Assembly: GCA_016192455.1 (NCBI GenBank)
Contig: JACPUC010000017.1
Coordinates: 62,001 to 126,000, forward strand
Reading direction: 5' to 3'
Origin: Candidatus Tectimicrobiota bacterium
GTDB taxonomy: Bacteria; JACPUC01
DNA length: 64,000 nt
A model generated the notes under the pieces. That model was not told the origin of the DNA, made no database searches, and worked only from the letters and a program-made list of their open reading frames with translations. This document shows, one piece after another, positions 14,892 to 64,000 of the stretch. The position numbers and the translations under genes were made by a program. How positions within the stretch are numbered: position 1 is the stretch's first letter; each line of letters opens with the position of its first letter.

Positions 14892-16325
14892 TTACCGTCG
14901 CAACTCAGCAATTCCAAGCTCTTCCCACATCCAGCTAAAGTCATAGGGCTGTTGCTTACTACCCTTCGTCCTGCGAGCCTCGTGGTTTTCGAGATTCTTC
15001 AGCCAAACGACTACCTTCTTTTTCCCTGCCGCGCTGCGGACAAGCTGACGGGGTGTCTTCTTGTCAAGGGCCGGAACTTTTTCCTCTAACAGATTTCGGT
15101 AGTGATCGTCCAGGAATTCTTTCAAAATAGGAGCCACAATTTCACGATCTATTTCCTCAGCCTCTGGAAATTCGTCATCGTCGTTGTCTTGCGCATCCCA
15201 TTCTTCGAGAGCTTGCTCTACCGATTGCACAGATGTTAATGGAGTTCCAACAAATCCTGCAAGCAGTTTCAACAACAATGCCTTGCCTCGCTCCGCCCGC
15301 TCCTTGGAATCAACGCTCAGAATGACGTGCTTCTCATGCAAGTCTACAGAGCCAAGCAAGGTGCGGTTATCGTCACGGAACGTCAAGAAAGATAATCCTC
15401 CTCGAGCCTTGCTTCGTGGAGGTTTTCCGCCATCACCTTCTGCCAGCCACGTCCAGCTCCTTTCATCAGATTCACGCTCCAACTCCGGCGCGGCATCAAG
15501 CAGGTGCTCCACCTCCGAAAGCGCAATCTCCAAAAGAGGAAACGTCACCACCGAAAGGACAATCTTCTCGCCGTCAAAATTGGTAAGCTCAGGCAGAGGC
15601 CGCTGAAGACTGTCAAGGCAATACATCAACCACACCCTACTAAAGCCTGTCGCGAAGCCAGCGAGAACTACCGTTGATACCTCCTGCCGTTGATCCTCCT
15701 CCAGAGCACGGCGCCGAGCAAGTTTTTTGTGCGTCTGCTGCATCTGCTTATCAGTGTCCCTAAATATCCGCAGGAGAGATTCCGCGGCCTCAGAGGGAAG
15801 CAGGAACGTAGCTCCCGTAAGATAATTCCGGCCCATCAGAGTGACAACACGAGCTGCCAGCTTATCCCATTGAACCATGGCTTGAGAGCCGAGGCGCTCT
15901 TCCGCGCGTACTACTTCCCCGCCACGGATAAGATCACGCAAAACCACATAGCTGCCCGGCTCAACCTGAACTACTTCATACAGACTTACGAACGAGTTGC
16001 GCAATGCCTGCAAATACTGCCTTGCCACAACGGGTTCTAATCTGCCGCGCTTCTTCAGGTAGTCATCAATAACATTGCGATTATCGGGAGGGAAACAACG
16101 GGAGACAAGGTCTTCCAATGCAAAGTCGAGTAGTAAGATATTGGCCTGTTCACCAAGCTTTCGAGCCAGCTCGTCAGGAGTTATCTCAAAATCAGCGCAC
16201 ACAGGAGCTACATGCTCTTCAAATACCAGTTCTTTTTCTGCTCTCCATTCTTCACGGTTCGCCCACCTCATGATATTGATGATGGCTTTATTTATTGCTG
16301 ACTTTGAGCTTTTTTTCTTTGTCAT
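14892..16325 (-). CDS. Uncharacterised protein resembling SEC-C/MbcA-associated proteins
   Basis: 477-residue soluble protein with no catalytic motif I recognise. A middle region (SLYEVVQVEPGSYVVLRDLI, then ERLGSQAMVQWDKLAARVV) and a C-terminal region (KVPALDKKTPRQLVRSAAGK, then VVVWLKNLE) recall unnamed bacterial proteins often annotated with SEC-C or pRiA4b-ORF3 features. No CxC...HC zinc site is present. Lys/Glu-rich stretches and lower GC set it apart from its neighbours. It lies between an IS3 and an IS630 remnant, suggesting transfer. Ribosome sites are weak; ATG at 16343 is an alternative start, and the frame is open to 16463. Confidence 0.6.
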   Translation of the reverse strand: MTKKKSSKSAINKAIINIMRWANREEWRAEKELVFEEHVAPVCADFEITPDELARKLGEQANILLLDFALEDLVSRCFPPDNRNVIDDYLKKRGRLEPVVARQYLQALRNSFVSLYEVVQVEPGSYVVLRDLIRGGEVVRAEERLGSQAMVQWDKLAARVVTLMGRNYLTGATFLLPSEAAESLLRIFRDTDKQMQQTHKKLARRRALEEDQRQEVSTVVLAGFATGFSRVWLMYCLDSLQRPLPELTNFDGEKIVLSVVTFPLLEIALSEVEHLLDAAPELERESDERSWTWLAEGDGGKPPRSKARGGLSFLTFRDDNRTLLGSVDLHEKHVILSVDSKERAERGKALLLKLLAGFVGTPLTSVQSVEQALEEWDAQDNDDDEFPEAEEIDREIVAPILKEFLDDHYRNLLEEKVPALDKKTPRQLVRSAAGKKKVVVWLKNLENHEARRTKGSKQQPYDFSWMWEELGIAELRR

Positions 16326-16567
16326 TTCTGCGCACCCAGACATTGGATTGAATTTTAATGTAGATGTTCCTTTGAGCTTCGTGGATTGCCAGGCCTTTCT
16401 CGCTGATGCCCTCTGAAGTCCACTGCAGCATTCAGCGTCATGCTGCCACCCGAGGCGAGACAAGGCAAGCCCATTCTGTCATGCCTTAAGAGAAGGCGCG
16501 CGGCATCAAAATGGTCATCGTCAAGCGCATGAGGCAGCTTGATGCGTCGAGTACTTCGTTGCTTAAT

Positions 16568-16853: not shown

Positions 16854-17561
16854 TCACCCGCCAAGGTAGGCGGCCTTCACCTTTGGGTCTTCGACCAGGC
16901 GCGCGGCCTCGTCGGCAAGGGTGATGACGCCGTTCTCCAGCACGTAGCCGCGGTGCGCCAGGCGCAGGGCCATGAAGGCGTTCTGCTCGACGAGCAGGAT
17001 CGTCACCCCCTGGCGGTTGATCTCGCCGATGGTGGCGAAGAGCTGCTGCACCAGCATCGGCGCCAGGCCGAGCGAGGGCTCGTCCAGCAGCAGGAGCTTC
17101 GGACGGGCCATGAGGGAGCGGCCGATGGCGAGCATCTGTTGCTCGCCGCCGCTGAGCGACCAGGCCAACTGCCGGCGGCGCTCCCGCAGCGCCGGGAAGA
17201 GATGATAGACCTTCTCCAGCTCCGCCTGGTAAGGCTCGCCGCGACGCCGCCAGGAGGCGGTGGCCACCTCCAGGTTCTCCTCCACGGTCAGGCCGGGGAA
17301 GACGCGCCGCCCTTCCGGGGCCTGGGCGATGCCGCGCCGCACGATCTCATCCGCCGGGCAGCGCTGAATCTCTTCTCCCAGGTAGGCGATGCTTCCCCGC
17401 CGCGCTCGGAGCAGGCCGGAGACGGTTTTCAGGATGGTGGACTTGCCCGCCCCGTTGGCGCCGATGAGGGTGACGATCTCCCCCTCCCGCACCTCGAAGG
17501 AGACCCCTTTCAGGGCCTCGATGTGGCCGTAGAACACATGCAGCGCTTCACACTGCAACAT
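16854..17561 (-). CDS. livF: Branched-chain amino acid ABC transporter ATP-binding protein LivF
   Basis: One of two cytoplasmic ATPases of a HAAT-type importer. The protein has 235 residues with Walker A GANGAGKST, signature LSGGEQQMLAIGR, Walker B LLLLDEPSLGL and an H-loop position in LLVEQNAF that is Gln rather than His, as is usual for LivF. It is the last gene of the minus-strand operon and overlaps livG by 14 bases, so translation is probably coupled. The true substrate may be an amino acid, amide or aromatic acid. Confidence 0.92.
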   Translation of the reverse strand: MLQCEALHVFYGHIEALKGVSFEVREGEIVTLIGANGAGKSTILKTVSGLLRARRGSIAYLGEEIQRCPADEIVRRGIAQAPEGRRVFPGLTVEENLEVATASWRRRGEPYQAELEKVYHLFPALRERRRQLAWSLSGGEQQMLAIGRSLMARPKLLLLDEPSLGLAPMLVQQLFATIGEINRQGVTILLVEQNAFMALRLAHRGYVLENGVITLADEAARLVEDPKVKAAYLGG

Positions 17562-18327
17562 CGGCGCTTCCTAGGTAGGCTTCGATGACCTCGGGCGAGT
17601 TCTGGACCTCCGCCGGGGTGCCGTCGGCGATCTTCTTGCCGAAATCGAGCACCATGACGCGGTCGGCGAGGGACATCACGAAGCGCATGTTGTGCTCGAT
17701 GAGGAGGATGCTGATCTGCCGCTGGCGGATGACCCTGATGCGCTCCTGGAGCTGGTCGGCCTCTTCCGGGTTGAGACCCGCCGCCGGCTCATCGAGCATG
17801 AGGATCTTCGGTTCCGTCGCCAGGGCGCGCGCCAGCTCGAGCAGGCGCTGCTGGCCATACGGCAGGCTGTCGGCGCGCAGCAACTCCTTCCCCGCCAGCC
17901 CCACCAGGTGCAGGGCCTCCCTCGCCTTGGCGCGCGCCTGCCGTTCCTCGCGGCGGGCCGCCGGCGTTCTGAAGATGGAGGGAAAGAACCCGACGGTGCC
18001 GCGACAGTAGTGTCCCACCAGCACGTTGTTCAGCACCGTCTGAGTGGCGAAGAGGCGGATGTTCTGGAAGGTGCGTGAAATGCCAAGCCTGGCGATGAGG
18101 TACGGTCGCAGGCCGATGAGGGTGCGCCCGCCCAGCGTGATCGCGCCGCTCGTTGGGGTGTAGATGCCGCTGATCATGTTCAGGAAGGTGGTCTTGCCGG
18201 CGCCATTCGGCCCGATGATGGCCAGGATGGTGCCAGGGGCCAGCGCCATGTCCACCTGGTCGAGGGCGACCAGCCCGCCAAAGCGCATCGTCAGTTGCTT
18301 CGCCTCCAGCATCGCCTCGCTGCTCAC
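17548..18327 (-). CDS. livG: Branched-chain amino acid ABC transporter ATP-binding protein LivG
   Basis: Second ATPase of the importer, 259 residues. Walker A GPNGAGKTT, LivG-typical ISRTFQNIRLF, signature region LPYGQQRLLELARAL, Walker B ILMLDEPAAGLNP and H-loop LLIEHNMRF are all visible. The signature starts PYG instead of LSGG, which is common in LivG. It starts at GTG; an ATG five codons in (18312) is an alternative. It overlaps livF by 14 bases. Confidence 0.92.
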   Translation of the reverse strand: MSSEAMLEAKQLTMRFGGLVALDQVDMALAPGTILAIIGPNGAGKTTFLNMISGIYTPTSGAITLGGRTLIGLRPYLIARLGISRTFQNIRLFATQTVLNNVLVGHYCRGTVGFFPSIFRTPAARREERQARAKAREALHLVGLAGKELLRADSLPYGQQRLLELARALATEPKILMLDEPAAGLNPEEADQLQERIRVIRQRQISILLIEHNMRFVMSLADRVMVLDFGKKIADGTPAEVQNSPEVIEAYLGSADVAV

Positions 18328-18451
18328 GATCGGCTTCCCGTCCTTGCGCCCCGTTGATCGCCGCGTCGTCCTGCGGGGTGGCGGCCGCCCTGGCCGCTTC
18401 GCGGCGGTGCGGCGCGCGCTTCCCTTCTGCCGTGCGCCGGCGGTCCCTGCC

Positions 18452-19498
18452 TCAGGGCGATTTGTCTCTGGCGCCTACCGACACGGGCGGGTTGGTGGTC
18501 GACCCGCTCGCCGCTGCTTGTCGGGGAGCGGCGGGGGCCGCGAACGCCCGGCCCAGTCTCCCCCTCAGCCAGGCGCCGGCACGCTCAAAAAGCCCCACCA
18601 GACCATACGGCATGCGCAAGATGAAGATGATGAGGAGCACGCCGTACACCACCATGTAGTACGACTTCAGGAATCGCAGCCACTCCGGAAGGAAGGTCAG
18701 GATGAAGGCGCCGAGGAGCGGCCCTCCAAGGGTGCCGAGGCCGCCCACTACGAGCATGACGAGGAGCTGGATGGAGGCTTCGAGGGAGAAGTTATCCGGG
18801 CTGATGTAGGTCGACCAGTGGGCGTAGAGGCTGCCGGCGATGCCGCCGTACACCGCACTGATGACAAACGCCAGCACCTTCATGTTGGCGACGTTGACCC
18901 CCATGGCCTCGGCGGCGATGTTGCCCTCGCGGACCGCCAGGAAGGCGCGCCCGAACTTCGAGTCGCGGATGAGGACGGTGATGCCGGTGAGGATGATGAG
19001 CATCCCCCAGGCGAGGTAGAAGAACATCTCATCCGAAGCGAAGACGAGGGGCCCGAGCCGCGGCGGAGGGATGTCCCGGAGACCTTGCGAACCGTTCGTC
19101 ACCGGTTCCCAGTTGAGGAGCACGAAGTAGACGACCTGGCCGAAGGCCAGGCTTGCCATCGCCAGGTAGTGCCCTTTCAGCTTCAGGGTGGGGTAGCCGA
19201 CCACCCAGGCGACGATGGCCGCGGCGATGGCGCCGCAGAACATCCCCACCAGGAAGGGAACGCCCCAGCCCATGACGAGGAGCGATGAGGCGTAGGCGCC
19301 GACCCCCCAGAAGGCAGCATGGCCCAGGTTCACTTGTCCGGCGTAGCCCATCACGATGTTCAGCCCCAGCACCAGGATCATGTAGATGCCGGCCAGGTTC
19401 GTCAGGTGCAGGGCATAATCGCTGGGCATGAGGAACGGCGCGGCGATGAAGAGGACAAGGCCGACGAGCGTTCCCATGAGGGTGACGCCGATTTTCAC
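18452..19498 (-). CDS. livM: Branched-chain amino acid ABC transporter permease LivM
   Basis: 348-residue inner-membrane permease with about nine hydrophobic segments. LivM hallmarks are GLNIVMGYAGQVNLGHAAFW near the N-terminus and the coupling-helix region FGRAFLAVREGNIAAEAMGV. A Gly-rich VVGGLGTLGGPLLGA follows near the C-terminus. The last 35 residues are a polar Ala/Pro/Ser tail. Start is GTG with GAGGGA upstream. The 124-base gap to livG is the largest in the operon after the hairpin region. Confidence 0.92.
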   Translation of the reverse strand: MKIGVTLMGTLVGLVLFIAAPFLMPSDYALHLTNLAGIYMILVLGLNIVMGYAGQVNLGHAAFWGVGAYASSLLVMGWGVPFLVGMFCGAIAAAIVAWVVGYPTLKLKGHYLAMASLAFGQVVYFVLLNWEPVTNGSQGLRDIPPPRLGPLVFASDEMFFYLAWGMLIILTGITVLIRDSKFGRAFLAVREGNIAAEAMGVNVANMKVLAFVISAVYGGIAGSLYAHWSTYISPDNFSLEASIQLLVMLVVGGLGTLGGPLLGAFILTFLPEWLRFLKSYYMVVYGVLLIIFILRMPYGLVGLFERAGAWLRGRLGRAFAAPAAPRQAAASGSTTNPPVSVGARDKSP

Positions 19499-19548
19499 GG
19501 TGCTGCATCCCTCGGCAGGCGCCTGGAGCTTCTCAGCCGCCAGGAGCG

Positions 19549-20421
19549 TCAGACCTTTTCCTGGATTTTTTCACCAAAGAACCCTTGCGGGCGGACGAAG
19601 AGGACGACGAGCATGATGAGCACCGCAAAGGCATCCTTGTACGCAGAGGAGATGTAGGCGGCGCCGAACACCTCCAGGAGCCCGAGGAAGAGCCCTCCGG
19701 TGATCGCTCCGGCCATGCTCCCGAAGCCGCCGACGATGCTGGCGACGAACGCCTTCACGCCGACGTGGAACCCCATGTTGGTGGAGACGAAGAGGACCGG
19801 CGCCAGGATGAGGCCGGCGATGGCGGCCAGGAAGGAGCTCATGACGAAGGTGATGATCATCATACGCTCGACCTTGATGCCCATCAGCCGCGCCGCTTCC
19901 TGGTCCTGGGCCGTGGCCTGCAGCTTGCGGCCCAGGAAGGTCTTCTCGAAAAAGAGGTACTGCGCCACCAAGAGGGCGACGGTAATGCCGATGATGAAAA
20001 GGTGTTGCGGCAGGATGACGGCATCCCCCACCTCGATCGGCACGTCGCTTACCAGGGTTCCGAAGAAGAACTCTTCGGGTCCCCAGGCCCAGTCCTGGAT
20101 CGCCAAGTTGCGCAGGATGATGCCGACCGCGATGGTGCTGATGATGACGGTGAGGAAGGGCTTGTCGCGCAGCGGGTAGTAAGCGACGCGCTCGAAGACG
20201 TAACCGAACACGAGCATCAGAAGCATCGACAGGAAGTAGGCGAGCCACAGGGGCCAGCCGAGCATGGTGGCGAAGGTGACGCCGAAGAAGGCGCCGAGCA
20301 TCACCATGTCGCCCTGGGCAAAGTTGATCGCGCCGACGGCCACATAGATGAGGAGGAACCCCAGCGCCACCAGCGCGTAAATACTTCCCATGGCCAAGCC
20401 GCTGATCACGAGCTGCAGCAC
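19549..20421 (-). CDS. livH: Branched-chain amino acid ABC transporter permease LivH
   Basis: 290-residue permease partner of LivM. The N-terminus VLQLVISGLAMGSIYALVAL, then AINFAQGDMVMLGAF, and the coupling loop GRKLQATAQDQEAARLMGI are typical LivH features. GSMAGAITGGLFLG and RPQGFFGEKIQEKV end the protein. The GTG at 20421 is preferred because GGAGAGAG lies six bases before it and it gives the usual length. Upstream codons encode a non-hydrophobic stretch. Confidence 0.9.
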   Translation of the reverse strand: MLQLVISGLAMGSIYALVALGFLLIYVAVGAINFAQGDMVMLGAFFGVTFATMLGWPLWLAYFLSMLLMLVFGYVFERVAYYPLRDKPFLTVIISTIAVGIILRNLAIQDWAWGPEEFFFGTLVSDVPIEVGDAVILPQHLFIIGITVALLVAQYLFFEKTFLGRKLQATAQDQEAARLMGIKVERMMIITFVMSSFLAAIAGLILAPVLFVSTNMGFHVGVKAFVASIVGGFGSMAGAITGGLFLGLLEVFGAAYISSAYKDAFAVLIMLVVLFVRPQGFFGEKIQEKV

Positions 20422-20508
20422 GCCGCTCTCTCCCCAACCGTCCCCCACGCCACGCTGGATGCTCCGGAGCGCTCCCGGCCCCTGGTCCTCCGCGAGCGTG
20501 CGCAAGGC

Positions 20509-20629: not shown

Positions 20630-21772
20630 TTACTGCGGGGTGGCGTCGATCAACTCGATGATCTGCTGCTCCTTGTCCTTCACGCGCACGATGGCGCCGA
20701 AATGCGACAGGTTCCCATCCTTATCAGAGGTGTGGCGGCCGGCGATGCCTTGGAAGTTCTTCGTGGCCAGCAAGGCGTCACGAATGCCGGCGCGGCTGAC
20801 GCCGCCGCGGCTAATCGCGTCAATGACCATGAGCCCGCCATCGTAGCCAATGGCGGCGTACTCGTCCGCCGGCTTGCCCCAGCGCTTCTCGAAGCGCTTC
20901 ACCCAATCCTGCACCTTGGGGTCCTTGCTCTGGCCCGGCACCGCCTTCACGACGATGTAGATATCTTCGACGGCGCCCTTCGCCAGCAGCTTCATGGTGG
21001 GGGGAATGATCGGGTGGGAGATGCGCGGCATCTTCAGGCCAAGCTCATAGGCCTGCTTGAGGATGATGGCGATGCCGCCCTGGTCGCTCGCCACCAGCAA
21101 CACCTCGGCATCGGAGTTCTTGATCTTGCGGAGCTGCGCGGTGACGTCCTTGTCGCCGAGGGTGTGCGACTCGTCAACGACGACCTTGGCGCCGATCTTC
21201 TCCGCCGTCTCGCGGGCGATCTTCGCGGAGCCGGTGCCATACTCGTCATTGCCGTGCATGAGGGCCAGCTTCTTGAAGCCGAGCTTCTCCACCGCAAAGC
21301 GCGCCTGCGCCGTGGATGAGACGGCGTCGGTGGGAATCATGTCGAACATCCACTCGCTCTGCGCCGCCAGCTTGGCATTCGTGCCCGACACGATGGTGGG
21401 GATGCCCGCCTTGGTCACGTAGGACTCGATGGCGTAGGACTGGGTGGAGAGTGGCATGCCGAGAATCACGTCCGGCTCCAGGCTGATGGCCTTCTGGGCC
21501 GCATTCTGGGCGCTTGGGTTGCTGCCGCCGGCGTCAACCACGGTGAACTCGATCTTATACTTGCTGATGCCCCCCTTGGCATTCACTTCCTCGAAGGCGA
21601 GCTGCGCGCCACGTTGGACCGAGAGCCCGAGGGTGGCGAACTTGTCGGTGATCGGCGCCAGGATCACGACCTTCGGCGAGCGGGTCACTTCCGCGGCGCG
21701 CGCCACGGCCGGAACAATGGTGATGAGCAGCGCCAGAACGAGCAACGCAACGAAGAGCGTACGCCGTTTCAT
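20630..21772 (-). CDS. Branched-chain amino acid ABC transporter periplasmic binding protein (LivK/HAAT type)
   Basis: 380-residue exported receptor of the importer. The ATG at 21772 has AAGGAG seven bases before it and starts a clear Sec signal, MKRRTLFVALLVLALLITIV followed by PAVARA, with cleavage near residue 26. The mature part begins with VVILAPITDKFATLGLSVQR and shows AFEEVNAKGGI, VVDAGGSNPSAQNAAQKAI and GYDGGLMVIDAI, as in periplasmic binding fold type I. It is first in the operon. Ligand class cannot be read; such receptors also bind amides and aromatic acids. Confidence 0.9.
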   Translation of the reverse strand: MKRRTLFVALLVLALLITIVPAVARAAEVTRSPKVVILAPITDKFATLGLSVQRGAQLAFEEVNAKGGISKYKIEFTVVDAGGSNPSAQNAAQKAISLEPDVILGMPLSTQSYAIESYVTKAGIPTIVSGTNAKLAAQSEWMFDMIPTDAVSSTAQARFAVEKLGFKKLALMHGNDEYGTGSAKIARETAEKIGAKVVVDESHTLGDKDVTAQLRKIKNSDAEVLLVASDQGGIAIILKQAYELGLKMPRISHPIIPPTMKLLAKGAVEDIYIVVKAVPGQSKDPKVQDWVKRFEKRWGKPADEYAAIGYDGGLMVIDAISRGGVSRAGIRDALLATKNFQGIAGRHTSDKDGNLSHFGAIVRVKDKEQQIIELIDATPQ

Positions 21773-21921
21773 CTCCTGTCTCCTTCTTGACCAAGCGGCA
21801 GGATGCTTCACCTCAACCGGGATGCAGGACGTTTGCTCGGCTTCACCTCCTTCGCAGCAGGTGCGTCCGACGGCGCGGACATGAGAAGTCGACAGCGGTG
21901 TGTTCCCCTGTCGGTACGAGC

Positions 21922-21950
21922 ATTCCACCAAGACCGCGCCTGCTTGTCAA
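21922..21950 (-). promoter_or_regulatory. Candidate promoter of the first liv operon
   Basis: On the minus strand TTGACA (21950-21945), a 17-base spacer and TGGAAT (21927-21922) lie about 150 bases before the binding-protein start. The -35 is a perfect match and the -10 matches four of six positions. Confidence 0.5.
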
Positions 21951-22069
21951 GGCGCCGCGGCGGCCGCCCAGCTTTGGCGCGCCTCCTGCCCGCCCCGCGC
22001 ATCTACCATGGCGCCCGCCGACCCTCCCTGGGCGCCAGAGCTGTGGGAAGAGCGGCGGATCGCTTCGGG

Positions 22070-23593
22070 CTAGGTCAGGTACGGCGCCACCTTCGCCTTG
22101 ATCTTCTCCATGGCCTCCTTCGGAGGCCGCGCCGGCACCTGGTGCAGCTTCGTGAAGCGCTCGGGCAGCTTGAAGGTGGCGTCGATGCCGAGTTGCTCGC
22201 TCGTCACCGTATTGCCTTGCGGCGTCGCCAGCGCCGAGGGATCGAAGTAGAGCACCTGCCCCTTGTCGTTGAAGATCGTATCGCTCTTCGGCTGCACCCG
22301 AGTATTGAGCGCCCAGATGACCTCGTCGAGGCTGTACGGGTCGATATCCGGGCCGACCACGACGACGTACTTCGCCACCGCTCCATACCGCCCCGGCGAG
22401 CCCCACACCGCATGGATGATCTGGTGCCCGAACCAGGCATACGGCTTCTCATGGGCGTCAACATTGAGCTGCACCACGTAGAACATGCCGCGCCCGCCGA
22501 AGGAGGGGTAGGCAACAACGTCTTGCACCTGCGGGAAACCCGACCGCAGGTAGCTCAGCACCTCGCTCTCGATGGTGATGAGCTGCAGGAAGCCGTGATC
22601 GTAGGGGGGCATGAAGCTGCGGGAGGGATGCCAGATGGGATCGCGCCGGCGGGTGATGCAGTTGATCTTCGTCACCGGCAGCAGTTGGTACTCATTGTAG
22701 TAACCCAGGAAGTTCCCATGCTTGTAGTCGGCAAGCTCTTGATCCGGCAGCACCTCTCCTTCGAGCACCCACTCGGACGTCGCCGGCACGTAGAGGTCCA
22801 CCGTCTCGCAGCGCACGATCTCCGTGGGGCCGCCGCGCAGCGCCCCCACCATGGCGTACTTGTCCCAGGCGTGGCTGCCGCGGGGGCAGCGCGGGCCGCC
22901 GCCGATGATGAAGAGTTGCGGCTCGATGCAGGAGGCGATGGCGATCTCCAGCGGTTTGCCGCGCTTGACGGCGTTGGCGTAGTTCTCCGCCACGTGGATG
23001 CCCGTGGGGGGCTTCCAGAAGATGTAGGAGATGAGGCAGCGGCGGCGCAGCTCCTCGCTGTACGGCGTGCCGTCGTGCTGCAGATCGAGGAACGAGTGCA
23101 ACAGGGCGCTGGCGTTCAAGGTGCCGGTGTCGGGGTCGCGCGTTACGGAGACGTTGTCGGAGATCATCGCCGACCACTCTTCGCCGAACCAGACCTTCGG
23201 CACTTGGGTTTGCAGGTCGATGTCGTCGCCCCGGATGATCACCTCCTTGCAGGGCGCTTTGCCGGGATCCACGATGACCGGCTCGGGCCAGCTCTCCGGC
23301 GGCGTCTTCACCGCCGCGGCCAGCTTCTCCTTGGCCTCGCCCCAGTTCTCCACCTCCAGCGCCAGGCACATGCGCTTGCGGCTGCCGATGTTGCCGATGT
23401 AAACCGGCACGCCAGGGGTGTTGTACCCCTCCAGGTTCGTCAGCTTCACCGCCGGCACGTTGTTGATCGAGAGGTAGCGGCTCAGCGCCATCAACTCGTT
23501 GTCGTTCCGCGTGACGCGAATGGGGACGTCCAAGGTGCGAAGCTCGCCCTGCTCTTCCAGATGCCGAAGAAATGCGCGCTGGTCCTGAAACAT
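22070..23593 (-). CDS. UbiD family decarboxylase homologue, catalytic residues apparently lost
   Basis: 507-residue member of the prenylated-FMN (de)carboxylase family. The N-terminal MFQDQRAFLRHLEEQGEL and the VSVTRDPDTGTLNAS region show membership. So do EWVLEGEVLP and a C-terminal half with DIDPYSLDEVIWALNTR. By eye alignment the Arg of the N-x4-R motif is replaced (NASALLH). The EGPFGE motif holding both catalytic Glu reads HGNFLG. Metal-site Asn and Glu positions seem kept. It may be a non-catalytic subunit or a new activity. The ATG at 23593 follows GGGAGGGACACC. It stands as a single minus-strand gene with no UbiX beside it. Confidence 0.82.
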   Translation of the reverse strand: MFQDQRAFLRHLEEQGELRTLDVPIRVTRNDNELMALSRYLSINNVPAVKLTNLEGYNTPGVPVYIGNIGSRKRMCLALEVENWGEAKEKLAAAVKTPPESWPEPVIVDPGKAPCKEVIIRGDDIDLQTQVPKVWFGEEWSAMISDNVSVTRDPDTGTLNASALLHSFLDLQHDGTPYSEELRRRCLISYIFWKPPTGIHVAENYANAVKRGKPLEIAIASCIEPQLFIIGGGPRCPRGSHAWDKYAMVGALRGGPTEIVRCETVDLYVPATSEWVLEGEVLPDQELADYKHGNFLGYYNEYQLLPVTKINCITRRRDPIWHPSRSFMPPYDHGFLQLITIESEVLSYLRSGFPQVQDVVAYPSFGGRGMFYVVQLNVDAHEKPYAWFGHQIIHAVWGSPGRYGAVAKYVVVVGPDIDPYSLDEVIWALNTRVQPKSDTIFNDKGQVLYFDPSALATPQGNTVTSEQLGIDATFKLPERFTKLHQVPARPPKEAMEKIKAKVAPYLT

Positions 23594-23628
23594 GGTGTCC
23601 CTCCCGGAAAGCCCTGCCTTCCTCAATC

Positions 23629-23652
23629 GTATTGGGAATAGTATTGGAAATG
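23629..23652. repeat. Tandem 12-base direct repeat upstream of the ubiD-like gene
   Basis: GTATTGGGAATA (23629-23640) is followed directly by GTATTGGAAATG (23641-23652), ten of twelve bases identical. It lies 36 bases before the ubiD-like start and just downstream of a minus-strand TTGACA. This placement would suit a repressor or activator site. Confidence 0.45.
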
Positions 23653-35962: not shown

Positions 35963-37306
35963 ATGTTCGAGTCACTCGGCGCGTTTGTTGATCACCTGCG
36001 CGCCCAGGGCAAGCTCGTTGACATCGACGAGGAGCTGTCACCCGACTACGAAGTGGCCGCCGCCGTGCGCCTCATCGACCAGCGCCTCGGCAAGGCGGTG
36101 CTCTGCCGCAAGGTGCGCGGCTGCGGCATGCCGGTGGTGGCGAATATCCTGGCGCGGCGCGACCTCCTGCGGCTCGCCTTCGCCTCTCCGAACGACCCCA
36201 CCGAGGAGTACCTGCGGCGCATCGGCGGCTCCCTGCCGCCCGAGGTGGTGCGCGCGGCCCCCGTGCACGAGGTGGTCCACGACGGCGACTTCGACGTCGC
36301 CAAGCTCTTGCCGCTTTTGCTGCACCATGAGAAGGACGCGGCGCGCTACATCTCCAGCGGCGTCACCGTGTCGCGCGACCCGCAGACCGGCCTGCGCGGC
36401 ATGGGCATCTACCGCATCCAGGTGTGCGGCCCGCGCGAGCTGACGATCTCCATCGGCTCGCCGCCGGTCAGCGACTTCCTGGCGAAGGCGAACGCGACCG
36501 GCAAACCGCTCCCCGTCGCCATCGCCATCGGCTTGGAGCCGCTGAGCTACTTCGCCTCGGTGGTACCGGTCGCTGCGGGAGTCGACAAGTTCGACGCCGC
36601 CGGGACCTTACGCGGCGCGCCGGTGCCGCTCGTCGCGGCACGGACACAGCCCGTGGAGGTGTATGCCGAGGCCGAGATCGTCCTCGAGGGGGAGATGCTG
36701 CCGAACACGCAGCGCGAGGATGGACCAGTGGGGGAATCGACGGGCTACTACCACGCCGGCAGAAGCTGGGCGGCGCGCCTGACGGCGGTGACGCACCGGG
36801 CGCACCCCTTCTACTACGCCCTCGTGCCGTTCGCGGCGGAGAACACGCTGCTCATGGGGGTGACGCGCGAGGCTGACCTCCTCGCCGCGCTGCGCCGCAA
36901 GTTCCCCAGCGTGCGGCGCGTCTCCCTCACGCAGGGGAGCGTGGCGATGCTCGCCATCATCCAGGCTGCGCCGGCGAGCAAGGAGGAGGCGACGGCGATG
37001 GTGCGCGCCGCCCTCGAGGGATCAATGCAGGTGAAGACCGCCATCCTCGTCGATGCGGACGTGGACCCCCACGACCTCAACGACGTGCAGTGGGCGCTCA
37101 GCACGCGCTTCCAGGCCGACCGCGACCTCCTGGTGCTGCGCGACCTGCCGGGGTCGCCGATCGATCCCACCGCCACGAACCGGCGCACCGCCAAGCTCGG
37201 CCTCGACGCCACCCGGCCCGCGGATCAGGCTGAGGCCTTCATGCGCATCGCCCTGGATCCCGCGGCGCGGCGGCGCGTGGAGGAGATTCTGGCGCGGCTG
37301 ACCTGA
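35963..37306 (+). CDS. UbiD family decarboxylase (second copy)
   Basis: 447-residue member of the prFMN-dependent decarboxylase family. SGVTVSRDPQTGLRGMGIYR keeps the catalytic Arg of the N/G-x4-R motif. AEIVLEGEMLP carries the metal Glu, and the catalytic loop reads EDGPVGESTGYY. There the first Glu of EGPFGE is Asp and the second is kept. DADVDPHDLNDVQWALSTR is the usual C-terminal segment. The ATG at 35963 follows GGGAGGAG. It is divergent from the ThDP gene across 195 bases and may share control with it. Substrate is probably an aromatic or unsaturated acid. Confidence 0.9.
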   Translation: MFESLGAFVDHLRAQGKLVDIDEELSPDYEVAAAVRLIDQRLGKAVLCRKVRGCGMPVVANILARRDLLRLAFASPNDPTEEYLRRIGGSLPPEVVRAAPVHEVVHDGDFDVAKLLPLLLHHEKDAARYISSGVTVSRDPQTGLRGMGIYRIQVCGPRELTISIGSPPVSDFLAKANATGKPLPVAIAIGLEPLSYFASVVPVAAGVDKFDAAGTLRGAPVPLVAARTQPVEVYAEAEIVLEGEMLPNTQREDGPVGESTGYYHAGRSWAARLTAVTHRAHPFYYALVPFAAENTLLMGVTREADLLAALRRKFPSVRRVSLTQGSVAMLAIIQAAPASKEEATAMVRAALEGSMQVKTAILVDADVDPHDLNDVQWALSTRFQADRDLLVLRDLPGSPIDPTATNRRTAKLGLDATRPADQAEAFMRIALDPAARRRVEEILARLT

Positions 37307-62872: not shown

Positions 62873-64000
62873 TCAGCCGTAACGCTCGTACGGGATGTTC
62901 GTCAGCCGGTCGCGCGGGATGAAGTTCTCCAGGTCGATCTTCTCCATGACATCCTGGGGCACCGAGAGCTTGCGCGCGAAGCGCCGCGGGTCCACCGGTT
63001 TGGTGCAGTCGAAGCCGGTCTTCGTGCCCAGTTCGCTGGGGCGGCTGGGATCAAGGGTGGGGGCCGGCAACCCCGGCAAGACGACGATGTCGCGGTCGCC
63101 CTGGAAGCGGGTGGCGAAGGCCTGCATCACCTGCTGCTCGTCGAAGATATCGACATCGGTGTCGAAGACCCAGGCGTGCTTCACCAGGTGGTGCGAGGTG
63201 AGGGCTTCGACGAGGGCGATCTTGCTGCTCCCCTCGACGAGCTTGTCGATCTGCAGGTAGAGGTGGAACTGGCCGCAGCCGGACATGGGAGCGTAGACGT
63301 TGGTGATCGTCGGCACGGCGCGGCGCACCTTCTCGTAGGCGGCCCCCTCGCGCGTCAGCGAGCCGAGGCAGTGCGAGTGCCCCACCATGAGGTCGTACCA
63401 GTGGGCGCCGGCGCGGTGCGTCACCGCTGTCACCTCGAGGTACGGGTTCCAGCGCTGCGGGCCGCTGTAGCGGGTGTACTCGCCGAAGGGGCCTTCGGGA
63501 CGGCGCTTGCCGGCCATCAGGTGGCCCTCGATGACGAACTCGGCGTCCGCCGGCACCAGGAAGTCGTCGCCCAGGGTCTCCGACGGCACCAGTCGCAGGG
63601 GTTGGCCCAGCATGCCGCCGGCGGCCGCGAAGTGGCTATCGGTGAGGGGGATGCGCGTCTCGCAACCGAGGATGACGAGAGGGTGGGCACCCACCCAGTA
63701 GGCCACCCGCAGGTCCTCCCGGCGGCGCTCGTGCAGGGCGAAGATGTGGCCGTTGTGGGTGCTCGCTTCGAGCAGGACGCGAATCTCCCGCGGGCCGTGG
63801 ATCCAGCCGCGGTGCAGGGCCGAGTTGTCGGTGCCGTACTCCGGGTGGTAGCAGGTGAGAAAGCCGCCGCTGATGTAGGGCCCCGGGTCCATGTCGTGGT
63901 GGACGAGGGCCGGCAGTTTCGTCAGGTCTATCTCGTCGCCGCGCGCCACGACCTCCTTCACCGGCGCCTGGGCGCGCTTCACGACCACCGGCTGCCGGCG
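62873..64000 (-). CDS. UbiD family decarboxylase (third copy), N-terminus beyond the window
   Basis: At least 375 codons of a prFMN-dependent decarboxylase; the frame is open to the window edge, so the start lies outside. The key elements are intact: GTDNSALHRGWIHG (Asn and catalytic Arg), ADAEFVIEGHL (metal Glu) and RRPEGPFGEYTRYSG with both catalytic Glu. DTDVDIFDEQQVMQAFATR is the usual C-terminal segment. Of the three UbiD homologues here, this is the one with the canonical motif. Downstream are the zinc-ribbon gene and the M20 gene. Confidence 0.92.
   Translation of the reverse strand, partial: RRQPVVVKRAQAPVKEVVARGDEIDLTKLPALVHHDMDPGPYISGGFLTCYHPEYGTDNSALHRGWIHGPREIRVLLEASTHNGHIFALHERRREDLRVAYWVGAHPLVILGCETRIPLTDSHFAAAGGMLGQPLRLVPSETLGDDFLVPADAEFVIEGHLMAGKRRPEGPFGEYTRYSGPQRWNPYLEVTAVTHRAGAHWYDLMVGHSHCLGSLTREGAAYEKVRRAVPTITNVYAPMSGCGQFHLYLQIDKLVEGSSKIALVEALTSHHLVKHAWVFDTDVDIFDEQQVMQAFATRFQGDRDIVVLPGLPAPTLDPSRPSELGTKTGFDCTKPVDPRRFARKLSVPQDVMEKIDLENFIPRDRLTNIPYERYG

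Follow-up and report, generated by a model that had tools for sequence, protein, structure and literature searches.

A paralogous pair of UbiD-family proteins without the canonical catalytic set in a bacterial genome with 59 UbiD genes

A full-length UbiD-family gene upstream of a Liv-type transporter

The window analysed here, a 64,000-nt stretch of a Candidatus Tectimicrobiota genome (C15:62001-126000 of the source genome, designated G000), carries on its minus strand a gene for a 507-amino-acid protein (22070-23593), with an ATG at 23593-23591, a ribosome-binding-like GGGAGG directly 5′ of it, and a stop at 22070. Pfam searches assigned the product a UbiD_N, a UbiD and a UbiD_C domain with 28.0, 112.3 and 74.3 bits, all above the corresponding gathering scores (24.3, 23.3 and 24.2 bits), confirming it to be a full-length UbiD-family protein with an intact three-domain architecture. 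The opposite strand contains an open frame of its own at 21803-23641; as the UbiD homology lies wholly in the minus frame, we took this to be the usual high-GC shadow. Scanning the surroundings of 22070-23593 for promoters and terminators returned nothing above chance.

None of the NCBIfam models matched the protein at or above its own cut-off. The model for VdcC (NF041204), among the best NCBIfam matches, reached 190.6 bits as compared to a cut-off of 650, and the models for the phenylphosphate carboxylase alpha (TIGR02723) and beta (TIGR02724) subunits gave 81.7 and 90.2 bits against equivalog cut-offs of 564.6 and 468.95, respectively. Among proteins of known structure, the best match was Escherichia coli UbiD (3-octaprenyl-4-hydroxybenzoate decarboxylase; PDB 2idb, 5m1c; 1.3e-37), with which the window protein has in common the three domains, the Asn ligand, the conserved Lys, and the VPA-x-x-E and LEG segments. 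Next came a 3-polyprenyl-4-hydroxybenzoate decarboxylase-type enzyme (PDB 6h6v, 6h6x; 2.8e-36), which we take to be HmfF, and a phenolic acid decarboxylase (PDB 7ae4) matched at 1.3e-25.

The next downstream gene on the same strand (20630-21772), which begins 297 bp past the UbiD stop, encodes a LivK-type periplasmic binding protein (Peripla_BP_6). It is followed by a branched-chain-amino-acid-type ABC transporter (16854-20505, minus strand) comprising two permeases and two ATPases in the order livH, livM, livG, livF. Downstream of this transporter lies a 523-amino-acid open frame without a Pfam match (14892-16463, minus strand). The window holds two further UbiD genes, one at 35963-37306 on the plus strand and the other at 62873-64000 on the minus strand, the latter encoding a 473-amino-acid protein and extending past the window end.

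Replaced catalytic residues and partly retained metal-ligand positions

Active-site residues were assigned in a MAFFT alignment of the 59 UbiD proteins of the source genome together with E. coli UbiD from strain MG1655, using Aspergillus niger Fdc1—a ferulic acid decarboxylase of the same family—for reference positions (R173, E277, E282, N168, H191, E233 and K391). The register was tested by six MAFFT settings and by a hidden Markov model built without the window protein and its similarly odd paralog (see below), and all agreed.

In place of the catalytic Arg (E. coli R180, Fdc1 R173), the window protein has Leu165 (codon 23099-23101; this and all following codons on the minus strand), bearing out the first-pass annotation, which had read the Arg of the N-x4-R motif as Leu. 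That annotation had also considered both catalytic Glu to be lost, with EGPFGE converted to HGNFLG. This register is three residues off: the flanking G-[EDN]-F-x-G-Y-Y fixes DYKHGN, three residues earlier, as the true counterpart of the motif. Consequently, the claim stands for the second Glu only. The acid-base Glu/Asp (E. coli D290, Fdc1 E282) is Asn294 (22712-22714), while the first catalytic Glu (E. coli E285, Fdc1 E277) is conservatively replaced by Asp289 (22727-22729), leaving an acidic residue at the Fdc1 277 position and none at the 282 position. Unlike the window protein, in which GPF of the motif reads YKH, the aligned chains of 6h6v/6h6x and 7ae4 retain EGPFGE. A further change in the pocket converts DGG-x-Y into EEW-S-A-M.

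The Mn/metal ligands of the prFMN phosphate in Fdc1 are N168, H191, E233 and K391 (PMC4947166). Three of these four positions are kept in the window protein, namely Asn160 (23114-23116; E. coli N175, Fdc1 N168), His200 (22994-22996; Fdc1 H191 in the HMM alignment), and Lys408 (22370-22372; E. coli K396 and probably Fdc1 K391). His200 belongs to a GIH that aligns with the family's G-x-H, for which the Fdc1 counterpart is Q190-H191. The metal-binding Glu (E. coli E241, Fdc1 E233) is replaced by Lys245 (22859-22861), such that the earlier view of the metal-binding positions as kept applies to Asn, His and Lys but not to Glu. We place Lys245 at the Fdc1 E233 position because phmmer paired query residue 246 with Fdc1 residue 234 and because the spacing is an equal 44 residues between E233 and E277 in Fdc1 and between E241 and E285 in E. 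coli UbiD. Across the seven Fdc1 reference positions, the window protein thus carries three non-conservative replacements (R173 to Leu, E282 to Asn, E233 to Lys) and a conservative one (E277 to Asp).

Between the strand bearing the Arg position and the metal-binding His, an insertion of ~17 residues (23006-23056, minus strand) includes the sequence SYIFW-x-P (residues 189-195). Among the genome's UbiDs it is confined to the window protein and its paralog, and it likewise adds ~17 residues before the His ligand relative to E. coli UbiD. An AlphaFold model of the protein from a four-row alignment reached a pLDDT of 48.9 and was discarded.

The substitutions stand out against the remaining 57 UbiD proteins of the source genome. 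Of these, 55 carry the catalytic Arg and two have a Lys in its place; the first position is Glu in 51/57, and the second is Glu or Asp in 55/57. Indeed, the two other copies in the window retain the set in full or nearly so, as had been noted before: R-E-E with the metal Glu changed to His in the protein at 62873-64000, and R-D-E with the Asn ligand changed to Gly and the metal Glu to Lys in that at 35963-37306. Out of 60 family-conserved columns (conserved at at least 75%), the window protein retains 43, as does its paralog, and all four functional columns fall among the 17 lost by the window protein (Fisher p = 0.005 in a post hoc test). Loss of the catalytic set in this protein is well supported by these alignments.

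A paralog with the same substitutions and an expanded UbiD family

The paralog is encoded on a different contig of the source genome (G000:C23:165433-166944), is 70% identical to the window protein, and has the same Leu/Asp/Asn/Lys set at the four positions; Lys291 and His292 of the rewritten motif, as well as Lys245, are invariant in the pair. With dN at ~0.23 and dS at ~0.9, i.e. near saturation, dN/dS amounts to ~0.25 to 0.27, which argues for purifying selection on the pair and against decay. Most active-site segments are 73-84% identical between the two proteins, compared with 61% for the His-loop insertion, and conservation is best in segments of the C-terminal oligomerisation domain (up to 89%, residues 384-420). 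In a quick UbiD tree, for which SH-aLRT is the sole support measure, the pair forms a clade with 100% support and a stem of 1.49 changes per column, nested among catalytic UbiDs; the 34-row set around it also contains E. coli UbiD (support 98).

Two members, their common substitutions, purifying selection and a fully supported clade inside the UbiD tree are the basis on which a distinct two-member UbiD subclass without the canonical catalytic set, both members from one genome, is supported at the sequence level. The new subclass proposed by the first-pass annotation is upheld in this form, even if the residue losses claimed for it were partly wrong. Given that a second copy in the genome bears exactly the same swaps, the product of 22070-23593 is probably a working protein with an altered role rather than that of a broken gene.

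With 59 UbiD (PF01977) genes in 4.46 Mb, the source genome lies far above any other sampled genome. UbiD occurred in 160 of 386 sampled genomes (the source genome included), mostly as a single copy, and the highest first-look counts elsewhere in this sample were 18 (G031) and 12 (G084 and G086). Such an expansion suggests a lifestyle based on aromatic or unsaturated acid metabolism. As opposed to its 59 UbiDs, the genome encodes just two flavoproteins of the PF02441 family, one the size of CoaBC (447-residue frame) and one the size of UbiX (225-residue frame); by its size, the latter is a candidate UbiX and could make prFMN.

Searches of the 386 genomes drawn from across the bacteria (at 1e-75), of 95 genomes of one UbiD-rich phylum (at 1e-65) and of a few smaller phyla turned up no ortholog of the pair. 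Plasmids contained no ortholog either (best match ~29% identity), nor did GTDB contigs searched by peptide patterns, where one distant archaeal match had 28% identity. Viral contigs yielded no ortholog and no usable UbiDs, with a motif match on two contigs. Within this thin sample of ~480 other genomes plus plasmids and viral contigs, in which the source genome is the sole member of its phylum, the pair was seen in the source genome alone, which does not imply restriction to that genome. Our search of open-access papers found neither UbiD proteins without the E-R-E set nor UbiD expansions.

Possible roles of the pair

Mutational data on Fdc1 set the expectation for the residues lost here. An acidic residue is required at both 277 and 282, with E277D staying active and E282Q being inactive; R173K has no activity, and R173A has very low activity and disturbed cofactor maturation, the cofactor stalling mostly as an inactive radical (PMC5818171). 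VdcC, a non-oxidative hydroxyarylic acid decarboxylase subunit C, retains E(D)-R-E (PMC8379154). Because the window protein combines loss of the Arg with the change of E282 to Asn, it is unlikely to act as an ordinary decarboxylase without a rebuilt pocket.

Our leading, if tentative, reading of the sequence data is that the pair may be UbiD-fold enzymes that bind a cofactor and perform altered chemistry, having lost the canonical decarboxylation machinery. They would have arisen by duplication inside the very large UbiD family and shed, from the equipment for ordinary prFMN-dependent decarboxylation, the acid-base Glu/Asp as well as the Arg to which the substrate's carboxylate binds and which aids maturation of the cofactor. 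Since three of the four metal ligands are retained, a flavin-type cofactor is presumably still bound by its phosphate via Asn160, His200 and Lys408, with Lys245 taking the place of the usual metal-binding Glu; Lys also occupies the metal-Glu position in four paralogs that retain R-E/D-E, and Lys245 therefore need not abolish cofactor binding. The substrate would be imported and is probably aromatic or unsaturated, and its conversion would require neither an Arg to bind a carboxylate nor proton relay by Glu. Candidate replacements in the rebuilt pocket are Asp289, Lys291, His292 and the aromatic SYIFW insertion. More guardedly still, we suggest a UbiD-derived enzyme subclass, evolved in a lineage whose UbiD complement has grown to ~59 genes, with a prFMN or flavin site in which Lys stands in for one metal ligand and with a reaction different from Arg/Glu-assisted (de)carboxylation.

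Genomic context leans, circumstantially, toward an enzyme of its own. The genome search for a partner subunit that the first-pass annotation had called for came out negative, with no match to the VdcD-type small subunit, with which VdcC works, anywhere in the source genome and no further UbiD gene within 12 kb of either the window copy or the C23 paralog. The two copies also differ in transporter context: the paralog is flanked on one side by an acyl-CoA ligase and an ABC ATPase and on the other by a pair of NMT1-type binding proteins; an amidohydrolase and a CMD-family protein are encoded close by. Different catabolic-looking contexts without a UbiD neighbour somewhat favour separate enzymes over subunits.

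Ranked next is a possible role as a pseudoenzyme, i.e. a UbiD homologue without catalysis of its own that serves another UbiD of the same cell as a structural or regulatory subunit, or that binds a ligand or cofactor; we give it somewhat less credence than altered chemistry. As single substitutions in Fdc1, R173A and E282Q nearly or fully abolish decarboxylation, and the same losses here, joined by that of the metal Glu, could simply mean no catalysis. Naphthalene and phenylphosphate carboxylases, with several UbiD-like subunits that may serve in this way, offer an analogy: in culture N47, a single cluster encodes four such subunits of the naphthalene carboxylase (PMC12016498). The 57 other UbiDs of the source genome are potential partners, and the high conservation of the oligomerisation-domain segments would suit a structural part. 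However, neither paralog adjoins a catalytic UbiD, in contrast to the clustered genes of the naphthalene carboxylase subunits; the search of the genome for a VdcD-type subunit gave no match, and identity in most active-site segments, the His-loop insertion excepted, equals or exceeds the overall value for the pair.

It is unlikely that the two proteins are decarboxylases in which Asp289, Lys291, His292 or Lys245 have assumed carboxylate binding and proton transfer. The activity of Fdc1 E277D makes Asp289 compatible with catalysis, the new ionisable residues Lys291, His292 and Lys245 are invariant in the pair, and the clade sits among decarboxylases in the tree. Yet Fdc1 needs acids at both 277 and 282 and tolerates not even Lys for R173, while here the Arg and one acid are gone together, and the structural model was too poor to place the new residues. 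A decaying gene or an assembly artefact is highly improbable, for despite the long stem separating the pair from other UbiDs and a draft genome that is 88% complete with 2.3% contamination, two intact frames on different contigs share the same substitutions at a low dN/dS, and the intact, conserved paralog largely refutes this account.

In the literature we examined, prFMN enzymes are solely (de)carboxylases with one Arg-Glu-Glu/Asp network. A conserved lineage that lacks both the Arg and the acid-base Glu would be one of two things: a naturally occurring prFMN enzyme of different chemistry, as we tentatively favour, or a naturally occurring pseudoenzyme partner. On both readings, the need for the Arg-Glu network becomes testable in a natural protein instead of a mutant.

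Other non-canonical UbiD proteins of the genome

In the four paralogs with Lys for the metal Glu and R-E/D-E retained (35963-37306 in the window, G000:C10:11168, C20:104791 and C23:7162), the Asn ligand is changed to Gly, Ala or Thr, suggesting from the paired replacements that these proteins may hold the cofactor phosphate via Lys instead of a metal. A second non-canonical pair, G000:C7:81276-81878 (minus strand) and G000:C27:63564-64163 (plus strand), forms another clade with 100% support; here, the Arg is replaced by Lys, the first Glu by Gln, the Asn ligand by Asp and the metal Glu by Asp, and the acid-base Glu is retained. A very divergent UbiD with R-H-A (G000:C9:109367-109951, plus strand) adjoins a canonical R-E-E copy at C9:111321, possibly as a two-subunit arrangement. 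Finally, the UbiD at G000:C7:125055-125639 (plus strand) reads R-E-N, its acid-base Glu being changed to Asn and the other checked positions being canonical.
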